Assembly: GCA_013151865.1 (NCBI GenBank) | Contig: JAADHN010000145.1 | Location: 1-64,000 of the forward strand | DNA length: 64,000 nt | Reading direction: 5' to 3' | From: Kiritimatiellota bacterium | GTDB lineage: Bacteria > Verrucomicrobiota > Lentisphaeria > Oligosphaerales > JAADHN01 | In this document: positions 16,928 through 29,563 of the stretch, in pieces | Position numbering within the stretch: position 1 is the stretch's first letter | Layout: the number at the start of each line of letters is the position of its first letter | The notes under the pieces: model-generated | Told to the model about the DNA's origin: nothing | Database searches by the model: none | The model's input: only the letters and a program-made list of their open reading frames with translations | Program-made: the position numbers and the translations under genes

Positions 16928-17866
16928 ATGTCTACGACCCTTTATTGGCTGCAATGCGGCGGTTGCGGGGGAGACAGCATGTCTCTCCTGGGCTCGGAAT
17001 CCCCTGACTTGGTGGAACTCGTCGAACTGCTCAACTTGGATGTGCTATGGCATCCCTCCCTTTCCAACGGCACTCCGGCAGAGCATCGTCGACTCGTCGA
17101 GGCCATCCTGAACGGGGGGCAGGAACTCGATGTGCTGTGTGTCGAGGGGGCCGTCATCCGGGGACCGGGGGGGACCGGGATGTACGACCTTTGGGATGGC
17201 CGCCCCAAGAAGAACCTGACCGCCAGGCTGGCCGCTCGGGCCCGGTTCGTTGTGGCGGTCGGTACGTGCGCCAGTTTCGGCGGGATTCCCGGCATCGGCG
17301 AAGGTGAAGCCACCGGGCTCCAGTTCCATCGAGAAACGCCTGGCGGGTTCCTGGGCCGGGAATTCAGGTCGAGGGCTCAGTTGCCGGTCGTCAATCTGCC
17401 GGGCTGCCCCTGCCATTGCAGCGTCCTCGCGGGAAGCTTGTCGGCCCTCGTGCGAGGACGTCGCCTTGTTTTGAACCAGTACAATGCACCCGTTGAATGG
17501 TATGGCCTTTTTGTGCACCAGGGATGCGTTCGGAACGAATACCACGAGTATCGGGTCGAGGAACACGAGTTTGGGGAAAAGGGGTGCCTTTTCTTCCACT
17601 TGGGGTGTCGCGGTCCTCTGGCCCACGGCCCCTGCAACAAACTGCTGTGGAACCGGCGCAGTTCCAAGACGCGAGTGGGGGTTCCCTGCGCCGGGTGCAC
17701 CATGCCGGACTTCCCCCATGAATACCCCTTCTTCGTTACACCCAATATCGCCGACATTCCGCTCGATCTGCCCGAAGGGGTCGACCGTGCCCATTACCTG
17801 GCCTACAAGGGCATGGCGGCCGCGGCCGCACCCGAAAGGCTCAGGCAACGGAAGACCTTTGTGTAG
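16928..17866 (+). CDS. [NiFe]-hydrogenase small subunit, cytosolic (group 2-like)
   Basis: MSTTLYWLQCGGCGGDSMSLLGSESPDLVELV...; conserved Cys (CGGC, VGTCASFGGIPG, NLPGCPCH, distal cluster 'CLFFHLGCRGPLAHGPCNKLLWN..CAGCTMPDFP'); no Tat signal peptide. Confidence 0.92.
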   Translation: MSTTLYWLQCGGCGGDSMSLLGSESPDLVELVELLNLDVLWHPSLSNGTPAEHRRLVEAILNGGQELDVLCVEGAVIRGPGGTGMYDLWDGRPKKNLTARLAARARFVVAVGTCASFGGIPGIGEGEATGLQFHRETPGGFLGREFRSRAQLPVVNLPGCPCHCSVLAGSLSALVRGRRLVLNQYNAPVEWYGLFVHQGCVRNEYHEYRVEEHEFGEKGCLFFHLGCRGPLAHGPCNKLLWNRRSSKTRVGVPCAGCTMPDFPHEYPFFVTPNIADIPLDLPEGVDRAHYLAYKGMAAAAAPERLRQRKTFV

Positions 17867-17884: not shown

Positions 17885-19423
17885 ATGGCTCCCCCCAAGA
17901 AACTCAACGTCCCCCTGAACCGGGTTGAAGGCGATCTGGAAATCCGGGTCGAGATCGAGGACGGCATGGTCACGGATGCTTGGTGTTCGGGCACGATGTT
18001 CCGTGGCTTCGAAAGAATCCTGGTCGGGCGCGGGGCCCTTGACGGACTGGTGATCACCCCACGGATTTGCGGTATTTGCGGCACTTGCCATCTCACCGCC
18101 GCCAGCCGGGCACTCGACATGATTGCCGACGTGACTCCACCCCCAAATGCCACGCGGGTCCGCAATGTGGCCCTGATGTCCGAACACATCCAAAGCGATG
18201 TGCGACAAACTTTCCTCATGTTCGCACCGGACCTTGCGAACCCGGCGTACGAGGGTTGCGACCTTTACCCTGAAATCCGAAGACGGTATGAGCCTTTCAA
18301 GGGCGAGACGGTACTTGAAGTCATCAGAGAGACAAAGAAAGTCCCGGAGGTCATCGCGATCCTCGGCGGGCAGTGGCCGCACTCGTCTTACATGGTCCCG
18401 GGAGGTGTCGTGTCGTTGCCGACAAACGGCGACATCACGTCATGTCAATTCATCATCGAACGTTACCGACGATGGTACGAGAAACGGATCTTGGGCTGTT
18501 CCCTGGACCGCTGGCGTCGGATCCGCACCGCGGCAGACCTGGATGCGTGGCTCGAAGAGCGGGACGAACACCGCCAAAGCGATTTGGGGCTCCTGATCCG
18601 ATTCAGTCGGACTGTCGGGCTGACGAAGATCGGGCGTGGACATGCCAACTTCGTCAGCTACGGGGCCCTGGACACCCCGGACGAACGGCAGCCGGCCAAG
18701 CCGGGAAGCGATGGTTTTTTCATCCCCGCCGGGTTCGTCCGGGGTGGAGTGCCCCATCCGTTCGACCAACAACGGATTGCCGAACACGTGGCCCACTCCT
18801 GGTTCGAAGATTACGATGGCGGGCGGCACCCCGCTGCAGGCGAAACAACGCCTTACGCGACCGGCGACGAAGGGCGGAAATACTCCTGGGCCAAGGCACC
18901 CCGCTTTGACGGACTGCCGGCCGAAACCGGGCCGTTGGCCGAGAAAATCGTGGAGGGCGACCCGCTCTTTACGGACCTGCTCGAGCAGGCCGGCCCCAAC
19001 GCCTTCCTGCGCCAATTGGCCCGTGCGGTGCGACCGGTCAGTCTCATTCCACAAATCATCACCTGGCTTTCCGAAATCGACGTGAACGAACCTTTCTACG
19101 CGACGCCCGGAGAAATCGCCGCTGGGGAGGGTTATGGCCTGACGCAGGCCGCCCGGGGGGCCCTGGGGCATTGGGTCCGGATCGTTGACGGCAGAATCGC
19201 CCATTACCAAATCATCACCCCCACGGCATGGCATGCCTCCCCCCGCGATTCCGCCGGCATCAGGGGACCGATAGAAGAAGCTTTGATCGGGACCCCCGTC
19301 CGGGACGCGGACAATCCGATAGAACTTGGACACGTAATCCGGTCGTTCGACCCGTGTCTGGTGTGCACCGTTCACACGGTCGGGCGCGGACAGCTTTTCG
19401 GACGATCGACACTGGATGTCTGA
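17885..19423 (+). CDS. [NiFe]-hydrogenase large subunit
   Basis: L1 motif 'RICGICGTCHLTAASRALD', L2 motif 'FDPCLVCTVH' followed by a 15-residue tail TVGRGQLFGRSTLDV. Confidence 0.94.
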   Translation: MAPPKKLNVPLNRVEGDLEIRVEIEDGMVTDAWCSGTMFRGFERILVGRGALDGLVITPRICGICGTCHLTAASRALDMIADVTPPPNATRVRNVALMSEHIQSDVRQTFLMFAPDLANPAYEGCDLYPEIRRRYEPFKGETVLEVIRETKKVPEVIAILGGQWPHSSYMVPGGVVSLPTNGDITSCQFIIERYRRWYEKRILGCSLDRWRRIRTAADLDAWLEERDEHRQSDLGLLIRFSRTVGLTKIGRGHANFVSYGALDTPDERQPAKPGSDGFFIPAGFVRGGVPHPFDQQRIAEHVAHSWFEDYDGGRHPAAGETTPYATGDEGRKYSWAKAPRFDGLPAETGPLAEKIVEGDPLFTDLLEQAGPNAFLRQLARAVRPVSLIPQIITWLSEIDVNEPFYATPGEIAAGEGYGLTQAARGALGHWVRIVDGRIAHYQIITPTAWHASPRDSAGIRGPIEEALIGTPVRDADNPIELGHVIRSFDPCLVCTVHTVGRGQLFGRSTLDV

Positions 19424-19425
19424 CA

Positions 19426-19878
19426 GTGAGACGGATCATCGGAATCGGCAGTCGGTTCGTCCCCCGGGATGCGGCAGGCCCCAAGGTATGCGAACAGTTG
19501 CTCGCAGGGACGCTCCCGGACGAAATCGAGGTGATCGACGGCGGCCTGGGAGGAATCGACCTGCTCCGATTCATGGAAAACACCGAACGAGTCGTTTTCG
19601 TGGACAGTGTCGAGGGTTTCGCGCCGCCGGGACAACTCGTAATTCTCACGGCCGGGGAAATTGCGACGGCAGCGTCGGGGTACGGCCATGAGGCAGGCTT
19701 GCCGTATCTGGTGCGCGTCCTGCCCGAGGTCTGCCCGCCGCCTTGTCCCGAAGTGCTTCTGGTAGGGGTGGAAGGCCCACCGAGCGACCGACTCATCCAC
19801 TCGGCGGCACGCCTGGCGTTGAGAGTGGCTCTCGACGACAAACCGTATGGGCAGAAGACGCGGGGATGTCCCGCCTGA
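19426..19878 (+). CDS. Hydrogenase maturation protease (HycI/HybD-like)
   Basis: GTG start at 19426: VRRIIGIGSRFVPRDAAGPKVCEQL...; 'VIDGGLGGIDLL', 'VVFVDSVEG', 'GHEAGLPYLVRVL'. Confidence 0.82.
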   Translation: MRRIIGIGSRFVPRDAAGPKVCEQLLAGTLPDEIEVIDGGLGGIDLLRFMENTERVVFVDSVEGFAPPGQLVILTAGEIATAASGYGHEAGLPYLVRVLPEVCPPPCPEVLLVGVEGPPSDRLIHSAARLALRVALDDKPYGQKTRGCPA

Positions 19879-19890
19879 GGAGAAACAACG

Positions 19891-21717
19891 GTGTCAAGAG
19901 GTGGTGAGAAACGGTCCGTCGAAGAACTGGCAGCGGAGAACGCGCTGCTGAACCGGGAGGTGCGTGTCGCCCGCGAGGCTTCGGAAATAACTGCCGCCCT
20001 TGTCGTCGAACAGTTCCAGAAAATGGAGGAAATCCTGCGCAGACTGGAAGATACCGTTGCGGCCGAGCGTGAGCTGCAGAAAAAACTGAGCGACCAACTC
20101 CGCCAAGCCGAGATTCGGGAACGGAAGCTCAGCGAGGCGCGAATGGCCGCAGACGTGGCGAATCGCGCCAAGAGCAGTTTCCTCGCCAACATGAGCCACG
20201 AACTGCGCACGCCGCTGAACGCCATCATCGGCTACAGCGAAATGCTCCAGGAAGACGCCGAGGACTTGGGACAGAAAAGTTTCATCCCCGACTTGAAGAA
20301 AATCCATGCTGCCGGAAAACACCTTCTGGATTTGATCAGCGAGGTGTTGGATTTGTCCAAAATCGAGGCCGGGAAAATCGAATTGGTGCTCGAACAGGCC
20401 GAGATCAGGTCGGTGATCGACGGGATCGTGGCAACCATCCAACCCCTCATCGCCAAGAACGATAACCGGCTCCAAGTGGATGTTGCCGATGACCTCGGCA
20501 GCATGAAAACCGACATAACCCGATTGCGTCAATGCGTTTTCAACCTCTTGAGCAATGCCGGCAAATTCACCAGGCACGGCGTGATCGCTCTGCAGGCGCG
20601 TCGAGAGAACATTGACGGAGTGGAATGGCTCAAGGTCGCCGTCTCCGATACGGGCATCGGTATGACGGAGGAGCAGTTGGGGAAAATATTCGAGGCATTC
20701 TCGCAGGCGGACGCCACCACGAGCCGGGACTATGGAGGTACCGGGCTGGGACTGACGATCACGCGGCGCTTATGCCAAATGATGGGCGGAGATGTAACAG
20801 TCGAAAGCACGCCGGGCAAGGGATCGACTTTCACAATCCTGCTGCCCGTGTCCCCGTCTGCCCCTCCGGGCTCCGGCGCCGTCATCGACGCCGGTCCCGG
20901 CAAGACCGCGGAGGGCGCGCTTGATGCCGCCCCGGTCCCCCTGAACGCCGTTCTGGTCATTGACGATGAAGACTCGGCACGAGAACTGATTACCCGGCAG
21001 TTGACCAAGACAGGCCTGCATGTCGTCGCGGCCGCGGGCGGCGAGGAAGGATTACGTCTCGCCAGAGAGCTGCATCCGGTCGCCATCACACTGGATATCG
21101 CCATGCCGCACATGGATGGCTGGGCCGTGCTCACTGCCCTCAAGGCCGATCCGCAGACGGCCGACATTCCCGTCATCATCTGCTCGGTCGAAAAAAAGGA
21201 GAACATGGGCTTTGCATTGGGGGCGGTCGAATACCTGACGAAACCCATTGACCGGGAACGACTGACGAAGACCCTCGACGCGCTCAAGCCACGTGCCAAC
21301 GACAATCAGGTATTGATCGTCGAAGACGACCCGTCCACAAGGCAGTTGCTCGTCCATCTGTTGCGCAAAGAAGGCTGGACTGTCAGTGAAGCGGAGAATG
21401 GCCGAGTCGCCCTCGACCGAATCGCCGAGAGCATTCCCGGACTGATCCTCTTGGACCTGATGATGCCCGAAATGGACGGATTCGAGTTTGTGGCACAACT
21501 GCAGAAGCGCGAGCAGTGGCGCCGCATTCCTGTGATCGTGATCACCGCCGTAGACCTGACCGCCGCCGATAAAGAGCGACTGAACGGACATGTCAGCAGG
21601 ATACTCCGGAAAGGGAGCTTCAAACTGGAAGATGTACTGCGTGAAGTCCGTGACTTGCTGGACCGAATCGTCCCGAAGCCGCCCACGGCCGGGGTCGGAC
21701 CGGCCGCCACAGGCTGA
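19891..21717 (+). CDS. Hybrid histidine kinase (coiled coil-HisKA-HATPase-REC-REC)
   Basis: GTG start; H-box '[20 protein letters not shown]', N-box '[11 protein letters not shown]', G-boxes '[11 protein letters not shown]', '[13 protein letters not shown]'; two receivers '[28 protein letters not shown]' and '[32 protein letters not shown]'. Confidence 0.93.
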
Positions 21718-21742: not shown

Positions 21743-22105
21743 ATGGCGAAAATCTTGCTCGTCGAAGACAATGAGATGAACCGGGACATGCTCTCCAGAA
21801 GACTCAAGCGACGGGGGTACGATGTCCTCATGGCGTTTGACGGCCGGGAAGGCGTCCGGATGGCGCGCAGCGAAGCGCCGGACCTGATCCTGATGGACAT
21901 GAGCCTTCCGATCCTGGACGGCTGGGAGGCCACGCGCCAAATCAAGGCGGACCCTGCGATCAGTTCCATCCCCGTCATAGCCCTGACCGCCCATGCCATG
22001 CCGGGCGACCGCGAGAAGGCCGTCGAGGCCGGATGCGACGACTACGACACCAAGCCGATCGAACTGGTTCGCCTGCTCGAGAAAATTCAGGCGTTGCTGG
22101 TTTGA
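21743..22105 (+). CDS. Single-domain response regulator (CheY-like)
   Basis: MAKILLVEDNEMNRDMLSRRLKRRGYDVLMAFDGREGVRMARSEAPDLILMDMSLPILDGWEATRQIKADP...PVIALTAHAMPGDREKAVEAGCDDYDTKPIE. Confidence 0.92.
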   Translation: MAKILLVEDNEMNRDMLSRRLKRRGYDVLMAFDGREGVRMARSEAPDLILMDMSLPILDGWEATRQIKADPAISSIPVIALTAHAMPGDREKAVEAGCDDYDTKPIELVRLLEKIQALLV

Positions 22106-22272: not shown

Positions 22273-24531
22273 ATGAAGAGCGACGACCTAGTCCCCCATG
22301 CAGCAGAAAAGCGTTCGTCCGGGGACGCTTCGGCCCGCAACCCCCGAGAATTGGACGCCAAGCGGGCCGTTATTGCTCACATCCGGCACGAACTGCGCAC
22401 TCCCATCAACGGCATCATCGGGTACAGCGAGATGCTGTTGGAGGATGCAGCCGCAGAAGGCTGGGACACGATCACCGAAGATCTCACCAGGGTCCTCAGC
22501 GCCGGGCAGGAGCTTCTTTCTCTCGTCAATGAACTACTCGGGGCCCGGGAGCTGGCAGAGCAGACCGACCTCGATGTGGCCGAACTCGGCCGGAGCATAC
22601 GGCACGCCCTGATTACACCCATCAGCGCCGTCACGGGGTATAGCGAACTGCTCATGGAGGACGCGGAAGACACCGCATTCGCCGGGATTATTCCGGACCT
22701 CCGAAGGATCCATTCTGCCGGCAAGAAACTTGCCGCCCTGATCGACGATATCGTCAGTTTCTCGATGACTGCCGAAATCGCACCGGATTCCGGTGTGTCC
22801 GCCGGAGTGAGCGTTGTCCTTGACACGGTGAGTATGATCCGGGCACTGGCCGAAAACCGAACGGGGGCCGACCGGGTCGAATGCGGGTCGCTTCTCATCG
22901 TGGACGACAACGAAACCAACCGGGACCTCCTGGCGCGCCGACTGGAACGGTGCGGGCACCAAGTGGCCGCGGCATCCAACGGCCGCCGGGCGCTTGAAAT
23001 GTTGCGAGAACAGCCGTTCGACCTCCTGCTGCTCGACGTGATGATGCCCGAAATGAACGGGTTCGAAGTCCTCCAGCACCTTAAGCACGATCCCGAGCTG
23101 CGTCACATCCCGGTCATCATGATTTCGGCCCTGGACGAAATGGACAGCGTTGTCCGATGCATCGAAGCCGGGGCCGAAGATTACCTGCCGAAACCTTTCA
23201 ATCCAGTACTCTTGCACGCCCGAATCGGCGCAGGCTTGGCAAAAAAACGGTTGCACGATATCGAACGGGAGTACGCGAAACGACTCCAGACGCAATGGGA
23301 GAGCGCCAAACGGCTCGAGGACAACTTGCGGAAAGTGGTCCGCTACAGCCTTCAGAAACCCCCGGAGGAAATGCTGGCCGAATCACTCCGCATCCTCATT
23401 GCCTTGTCCGAAGCGCAAATGGGCGCAATCCTCGAAGAGGACGGCCCCAACCTCCGGTTCCTCTGCGCCAGCGTCCCGGACTTGATCGGTGCCGTGGTCC
23501 CATGGGAAAGCGTTGCAGGAGAGACGTTCACCCGGAATGTCATAACCTATGCCCCCGCCCGCGACGAACTCCGCCACTACGGACCGGCCGGCGAGTCACA
23601 CACCAATCAAGTCAAGTGCCTCCTCAGCGTGCCCATCCCACGCGTCATTTCCGCGCGCCGGACGCAGGCCTCGGCTGGGAGTGCAGGCGTATTGCAGCTC
23701 TTGTTCGCTCGAAACGCCCTGGCCCAGTTCGATCTCGCCCAAGGACCGCTGCGGCTCGGGATGGACCTCTCCGGCAGGCATGACTCCGAGGACCGCCTGT
23801 TGCAGGAACTCTTCATGGTGCTGCCCATGATCTCCCTGGGCATGGAAATCCAGAAGCTGCGTCAAACCTCGTATCAGGCCATCCATGAGCTGAAGAACAA
23901 GCTGATCGCGGCACAGTCGTGGACGAATTGCCTGAAAGAAGACTTGGAGGCGGTCGCGGCCGAGGCGCTCGGGGACGAGGACGTCATGGAAGACATCAAA
24001 CTCGTGGAGGAGGCAGTCACCTCTGGATACAACCTGGCCGTGGGCTACTTGCAGTTCACGAAAATCTACAATCCGCATTTCGAGGTGTGCCGAATCAACA
24101 CAGTACTGAAGGAAGTGGCCACGGACATCAAAGCTTTTGCCGACAACGTGGGTGGGCCCGGTTCCGTGTCCGTCGTGGTGGATCCCGGGCAGGCTCTCCC
24201 CAAGCGACAACTTGACCCGGCGCAATTGAAAATGGCCTTCTTCAACATCGGTAAGAACGCGGTGGAAGCCCTCATCGAGCACGGCACGGAGAGTCCGACC
24301 ATCACCCTCCTGTCGCAACTCCGTGACGACCGAATCGTCGTGACGATTGCCGACAACGGGAAGGGCATGCCGAAAGCAGTTGCAGAAAACCTGTTCGTCC
24401 CGTTCACCACCCAGAAAACCGGCGGGACCGGACTGGGCCTGACCATCACAAAGAAGATCGTCGATATGCACGGCGGCAAGATTTCGTGCGAAAGCGACTC
24501 AACCGGGACGCGCTTCCAGATTCTTCTGTGA
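22273..24531 (+). CDS. Multi-domain hybrid histidine kinase (two HisKA-like segments, REC, GAF-like region, HisKA-like, HATPase)
   Basis: Start MKSDDLVPHAAEKRSS; '[19 protein letters not shown]', 'IRHALITPISAVTGYSELL', REC 'SLLIVDDNETNRDLL..LLLLDVMMPEMNGFEV', 'IHELKNKLIAAQSW', N-box 'FNIGKNAVEAL', G-boxes 'DNGKGMP', '[12 protein letters not shown]'. Confidence 0.88.
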   Translation: MKSDDLVPHAAEKRSSGDASARNPRELDAKRAVIAHIRHELRTPINGIIGYSEMLLEDAAAEGWDTITEDLTRVLSAGQELLSLVNELLGARELAEQTDLDVAELGRSIRHALITPISAVTGYSELLMEDAEDTAFAGIIPDLRRIHSAGKKLAALIDDIVSFSMTAEIAPDSGVSAGVSVVLDTVSMIRALAENRTGADRVECGSLLIVDDNETNRDLLARRLERCGHQVAAASNGRRALEMLREQPFDLLLLDVMMPEMNGFEVLQHLKHDPELRHIPVIMISALDEMDSVVRCIEAGAEDYLPKPFNPVLLHARIGAGLAKKRLHDIEREYAKRLQTQWESAKRLEDNLRKVVRYSLQKPPEEMLAESLRILIALSEAQMGAILEEDGPNLRFLCASVPDLIGAVVPWESVAGETFTRNVITYAPARDELRHYGPAGESHTNQVKCLLSVPIPRVISARRTQASAGSAGVLQLLFARNALAQFDLAQGPLRLGMDLSGRHDSEDRLLQELFMVLPMISLGMEIQKLRQTSYQAIHELKNKLIAAQSWTNCLKEDLEAVAAEALGDEDVMEDIKLVEEAVTSGYNLAVGYLQFTKIYNPHFEVCRINTVLKEVATDIKAFADNVGGPGSVSVVVDPGQALPKRQLDPAQLKMAFFNIGKNAVEALIEHGTESPTITLLSQLRDDRIVVTIADNGKGMPKAVAENLFVPFTTQKTGGTGLGLTITKKIVDMHGGKISCESDSTGTRFQILL

Positions 24532-26541: not shown

Positions 26542-26844
26542 ATGAATGAGAACGACATCGGCAGGGGGAAGTTGTGGATGCGGCGATTGCCGTACATCAT
26601 GAACTTGGTCCAGGACTGGTGGAGACGGTTTGCGAAGTTGTCCTTCTGGATGAGCTTCGGAAACGAGGGCTCAGTGCAGAGCGACAAGTGCCGGTTGCCA
26701 TCGAGTGCCGGGGAGCCCGCTTCGACGAGGGGTTTCGCGCTGACATCATTGCTGAGAACAAGGTCATCATCGAACTGAAATCCGGCGAGACGATGAGCAA
26801 TGCGCGCAGGAAGCAAGTGCTGACGTATCTGAAGCTCGGTGGGA
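26542..26844 (+). pseudogene. Decayed GxxExxY-family gene
   Basis: ATG MNENDIGRG at 26542, then a frame change near 26566 into 'VVDAAIAVHHELGPGLVETVCEVVLLDELRKRGLSAERQVPVAIECRGARFDEGFRADIIAENKVIIELKSGETMSNARRKQVLTYLKL', then loss of homology at about 26842. Confidence 0.75.
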
Positions 26845-27307
26845 GGGGGAAACGCCGAAAGATCGGCCGAAAGTGTCCGCGTCCTTTGTGGACGGACTCT
26901 GGCCAAGCCGCGGCAAAGCGATGCTCGCGAAACTGCGGCGCGGGTGGCTTCGCAATGCCCCGCGCCGGTCCGTCACGAGGTTTCCGGGAGCGCGCCCCCG
27001 TCCCATCGGTCTTATGGGGCCTATCTGGCCCATCTCTTACCGGGCAACGCCCCCCCCGGGAATGGGACCGATAAAACGAATGGGACGGACAAAATTGGAC
27101 GGTGCATGCCGCCAAGAGACCGGAGCGGACCATGAACGAAACGGTGACCGGTCCGAATTTCGGATGACGATTACGCGGACGACTGCGGTCCGCGATCGAA
27201 AAGGCGCCGTCCAGCATCGTGAACCGTGATCATCAAGGTAATCGTAGAGCGAACGGAAGACAAGACATCTCGAGTTGATGCCGGGAACTTGCTGTCGCCG
27301 ACCATGA

Positions 27308-29563
<2,256 letters not shown>

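Follow-up and report, generated by a model that had tools for sequence, protein, structure and literature searches.

A putative H2-sensing [NiFe]-hydrogenase of Kiritimatiellota with a C-terminal tail and an adjacent maturation protease

Genes at the hydrogenase locus

The window (the whole 64,000-nucleotide stretch of a Kiritimatiellota contig that was analysed) encodes a [NiFe]-hydrogenase together with signalling proteins, in the order small subunit, tailed large subunit, protease, hybrid kinase, response regulator and kinase (Table 1). The large subunit has the active-site motifs RICGIC and DPCLVCTVH with the NiFe ligands intact, and its best relative in the PDB is Huc (7UUS/7UTD). The proximal-cluster motif of the small subunit is C13-G-G-D16, and neither a twin-arginine leader nor a membrane anchor was seen in this protein. 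Lacking from the locus are a DNA-binding regulator and any known target gene.

Table 1. Features of the hydrogenase locus, in window positions.
Feature	Position	Strand	Remarks
[NiFe]-hydrogenase small subunit	16928..17866	+	312 aa; PF14720 81.1 bits, PF01058 77.2 bits
[NiFe]-hydrogenase large subunit precursor	17885..19423	+	512 aa; PF00374 261.9 bits
C-terminal tail TVGRGQLFGRSTLDV	19376..19420	+	15 aa; predicted removal after His497
HycI/HybD-type maturation protease	19426..19878	+	150 aa; GTG start 2 nt past the large-subunit stop
Hybrid histidine kinase (P0004), HisKA-HATPase-REC-REC	19891..21717	+	608 aa; soluble
Helical module at kinase N-terminus	19924..20097	+	~50-58 aa; candidate hydrogenase-binding input
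Single-domain (CheY-like) response regulator	21743..22105	+	
Second large kinase (two HisKA-like stretches, REC, HATPase)	22273..24531	+	start codon uncertain; longest ORF from 22033

The large subunit ends in ...SFDPCLVCTVH-TVGRGQLFGRSTLDV, 15 residues beyond His497, with the stop codon at 19421-19423. The first-pass annotation had described, at 19340-19878, a large subunit running 15 residues past DPCLVCTVH and a protease gene starting 2 nt after its stop; both are confirmed and the coordinates fit. Enzymes with a DPCxxCxxH motif are cleaved after the last His, and by this rule cleavage would follow His497.

The protease passes both family thresholds, with 43.2 bits against Pfam HycI (cut-off 23) and 60.3 bits against NCBIfam TIGR00072 (cut-off 47.45). 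The three metal ligands of the HycI/HybD family (Asp/Asp/His) are intact, and they are also kept in the aligned proteases of related loci (the window clade defined below). In Thiorhodococcus minor, HycI, HisKA, HATPase and REC are encoded as one 755-aa ORF directly after the large subunit (L051:9493-11760). Gene order, the 2-nt spacing, the kept ligands and this protease-kinase fusion tie the protease to the hydrogenase unit. HypD was found on another contig of the genome. The genome also encodes a second hydrogenase (G000:C42; L098 5583-9647, minus strand) with large, small, FAD/NAD and FeS subunits, which has a tail of 7 aa after the motif DPCISCSTH and a protease of its own, and was judged by eye, from sequence and neighbours, to be group 3b-like.

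Pfam identified neither a PAS domain nor any other input domain in the hybrid kinase, and its first ~70 residues have no Pfam match above cut-off. A PAS domain is typical of the kinase partners of sensor hydrogenases. The second kinase has a domain order that is unusual for a hybrid kinase, its HATPase being distant from the two HisKA-like stretches and REC. Further downstream, an ORF at 26574-27074 (EVVLLDELRKRGL...IIELKSGE), GxxExxY family-like by eye, adjoins a katG-like gene (27311-29563).

Relatives, class placement and conservation of the tail

Relatives were taken as the best 80 from one scan of 84,980 genomes; many are MAG contigs. Reference loci were added for group 2a (Mycobacterium, Thermus, Runella, Bradyrhizobium and Sulfobacillus) and group 2b (plasmid loci of Azospirillum, Variovorax and Rhizobium), their labels being set by gene context and motifs rather than by HydDB, along with the plasmid-borne, cyclase-linked locus of Ideonella. 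HMMs built from window, E. coli and Ideonella seeds served to identify the neighbouring genes, and selected proteins were checked against Pfam. Among the best 80, the nearest relatives (~53-66% identity) belong to Planctomycetota, Chloroflexota, Acidobacteriota, Thermodesulfobacteriota, Myxococcota, Pseudomonadota and others, with Methylobacter, Methylomonas, Zoogloea and Vibrionaceae among those further away.

A tree of 69 large subunits, from which the tails had been removed beforehand, places the window enzyme in a clade of 35 rows (support 100/99), here called the window clade. Its sister is a 2c clade of 22 rows that includes Methylobacter tundripaludum (100/100), and the two are joined in 57 rows (100/100). 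Group 2a is separate (100/100). Group 2b falls outside the group of 2a, 2c and the window clade (branches 100/100 and 96/95), on a long branch to which the long-branch warning applies. The 2c label follows from the literature: Methylobacter genomes carry hydrogenases that HydDB classes as 2c (PMC12810054), and M. tundripaludum is the top match of the 2c case in a paper that gives the 2c motif as SFDxCLVCTVH (PMC4853749).

The window sequence SFDPCLVCTVH conforms to this L2 motif. Linkage to a diguanylate cyclase, another 2c trait, is not found in the window, where a histidine kinase follows; several 2c loci also have kinases. The window enzyme neither clusters with 2b nor ends at the last His without an endopeptidase, as 2b does, and it shows neither clustering with 2a nor the DSC motif of that group. 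The small-subunit proximal motif is CGGC in 2b, C[SN]GN in 2a and C[GS]G[DE] in both 2c and the window clade, so that Asp or Glu stands at the position of the fourth Cys of 2b. Extra Cys residues (C10, C162, C164) are frequent in small subunits of the window clade. From these sequence comparisons we place the window enzyme in a sister clade of 2c, which would lie inside or just beside that group depending on the HydDB boundary. It is not 2b, and as a sister of 2c it is expected to carry a tail.

All 37 readable members of the window clade have a tail (4-17 aa), and 26 of the 36 decidable loci include a protease gene; a histidine kinase follows. In 2c, tails of 12-14 aa occur in 42/42 and the protease in 41/42, the 42nd being cut by a contig end, and a GGDEF/EAL or kinase gene comes next. 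Nearly all readable loci have a kinase or GGDEF/EAL gene in this position. Tails (15-20 aa, after a DSC motif) and a nearby protease were also found in all five 2a references, while in the three 2b references the last His is the terminal residue (0 aa). The tail is not a chance feature, as every relative from the scan with a readable C-terminus has one.

The groups that naturally lack a C-terminal extension include 2b and 2d, but not 2c (PMC7294309). The earlier statement that HoxC/HupV sensors of group 2b end at the last His is therefore borne out by this source and by the references. The emphasis that the first-pass annotation laid on a contrast with canonical regulatory hydrogenases is nevertheless misplaced, as 2b was the wrong comparison: kinase-linked homologues routinely carry tail and protease, which by the annotation's own standard makes the arrangement ordinary here, a clade-wide trait rather than a peculiarity of one genome.

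The N-terminal module of the signalling proteins

The N-terminal stretch of the hybrid kinase has the consensus EENxLLRxEVRVARxASEITAxLVVEQFxKxExILxRLE. With an HMM of this stretch, the module was identified at the N-terminus of the post-hydrogenase signalling protein in 36/36 readable loci of the window clade and in none of 42 2c loci (E<1e-5). The window's own genome has a single copy. Across 388 genomes of the same phylum, module and hydrogenase are both confined to the window's genome, and the 387 genomes without the hydrogenase gave no match.

Among 50 whole genomes, the module is present in 33 of the 34 with a window-clade hydrogenase and in 1 of 16 controls. The sole module-less genome of the 34 is a MAG in which the contig breaks off behind the protease. 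The module-bearing control has a second hydrogenase, of the window clade, directly upstream of the module. Extra copies in other genomes all adjoin further window-clade hydrogenases (L132-L136). One of these (L136:4388-5860, minus strand) is carried by a PAS-GGDEF protein instead of a kinase, directly after hydrogenase and protease. The module therefore tracks window-clade hydrogenases and was seen exclusively beside them in the genomes searched.

Because the module follows the hydrogenase while the output switches from kinase to cyclase, it is best read as an input that contacts the hydrogenase. The module is a short helical segment, and a docking role is a prediction from its linkage. Compared by hhalign, the module and the coil at the N-terminus of 2c cyclases aligned in register over 50 columns at 88.6%, against 0.2-95% for coil controls, the two highest of which probably include part of the module itself. 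Homology between the two segments is at most suggested by this alignment. Separately, a Rieske [2Fe-2S] domain (PF00355) opens several 2c signalling proteins of the GGDEF/EAL or kinase type (L073:9983-12607, L055:9975-12065, L048:10007-12631). This suggests that in the sister clade electrons may pass from hydrogenase to signal protein, the Rieske domain being a possible direct acceptor.

Sensing, catalysis and known systems

We consider it likely that this cytoplasmic [NiFe]-hydrogenase is an H2 sensor of the 2c kind, matured like a processed enzyme and unlike the 2b sensors. The module at the front of the downstream kinase, which goes with this hydrogenase clade, favours signalling over catalysis. 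The first-pass annotation had offered a catalytic enzyme or a sensor from a processed lineage; with the kinase module the second option is much better supported, and the first has lost ground. The tailed precursor would receive its NiFe(CN)2CO site from Hyp proteins and lose TVGRGQLFGRSTLDV after His497 to the adjacent protease, and the mature large subunit would then pair with the small subunit. We predict that this pair docks on the helical module of the kinase, that H2 turnover, or its electrons, alters kinase activity, and that phosphate travels via the REC domains and the CheY-like regulator. Points against this explanation are the lack of a PAS domain in the kinase, the shortness of the module, the absence of a DNA-binding regulator or known target from the locus, and the relatives that have no protease next to the hydrogenase. 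Reading O2 insensitivity across from RH was rejected: the position of the RH gas-channel Phe is mostly Met in the window clade.

A catalytic uptake hydrogenase, 2a-like as are Huc or cyanobacterial HupSL and merely located beside regulatory genes, would also have tail and protease, which are the rule in the 2a references, and among PDB entries its nearest relative is Huc, a catalytic enzyme. We regard this as unlikely, given that the window clade is separate from 2a in the tree, that the window has DPC and CGGD rather than DSC and CSGN, that the NifU, NHL-repeat and TPR genes of 2a loci are all missing here, and that linkage to a kinase with a hydrogenase-specific module is conserved across many phyla.

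It is similarly improbable that the enzyme is a sensor with a vestigial tail, the protease gene being a hitch-hiker and cleavage unneeded for function. The 2b sensors do function without a tail, and an adjacent protease is missing in ten of the ~35-36 window-clade loci, four of which have tails of 12-17 aa. Tails of 4-6 aa go with protease absence (6/9 without an adjacent protease vs 4/26 with longer tails; Fisher p 0.007), but the association comprises only three well-supported independent contrasts on the tree, too few pairs for phylogenetic significance. The change from DPC to DAC was not significantly associated with protease loss (Fisher p 0.11). Against a vestigial tail stand the ligands kept in the aligned proteases of the clade and the Thiorhodococcus fusion. 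In addition, most genomes without an adjacent protease have a HycI gene elsewhere, and cleavage in trans is therefore possible for these loci. Short tails together with a missing adjacent protease were recorded at L017, L019, L024, L026, L029, L040 and L133, which are possible intermediates in tail loss; the pattern suggests erosion toward a tail-less state in some relatives. A HupUV-type 2b sensor that regained tail and protease in the window lineage would agree with the kinase linkage and the absence of a secretion leader, but is extremely improbable, as 2b lies outside the 2a/2c/window group (subject to the long-branch warning), tails are already present in all near relatives and the proximal motif reads CGGD where 2b has CGGC.

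Returning to the reading as a 2c-type sensor, we tentatively propose that the window clade is a widespread branch of H2 sensors next to 2c that has not been described before. These sensors may recognise their output protein through its ~50-residue N-terminal helical module, movable between histidine kinase and diguanylate cyclase, and a stepwise loss of tail and protease, to which the 4-6 aa tails without an adjacent protease would point, may record a route to protease-independent sensors. The rule that sensor hydrogenases can do without a C-terminal endopeptidase was drawn from 2b (and 2d); if kinase- and cyclase-linked hydrogenases are sensors, it is not general. A hydrogenase-specific kinase module would provide a handle on how a hydrogenase hands on its signal, and the short-tailed relatives that lack a protease would be natural intermediates in which to ask what reason [NiFe]-hydrogenases have for carrying a tail.

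Group 2a (Huc, cyanobacterial HupSL) shares with the window enzyme a tailed precursor and a nearby protease, and includes the nearest solved structure, but differs in its DSC and C[SN]GN motifs, its neighbouring genes and its catalytic role. Group 2b (HoxBC/HupUV with HoxJ/HupT) is likewise a cytoplasmic dimer beside a histidine kinase, with Ile at the CGIC gas-channel position; unlike the window enzyme it ends at the last His, has no dedicated protease, carries CGGC and is distant in the tree. The protease resembles the HycI/HybD/HyaD endopeptidases in its family matches and Asp/Asp/His ligands, but is divergent (below the HyaD/HybD subfamily cut-off) and dedicated to a putative sensor. HydDB group 2c, a diguanylate cyclase-linked putative H2 sensor, is the sister clade and has the same combination of tail, protease and signalling gene, with SFDxCLVCTVH and C[GS]G[DE]. 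It differs in its less variable tails (12-14 vs 4-17 aa) and in having mostly GGDEF/EAL proteins downstream, where the window clade has histidine kinases with a distinct N-terminal module.
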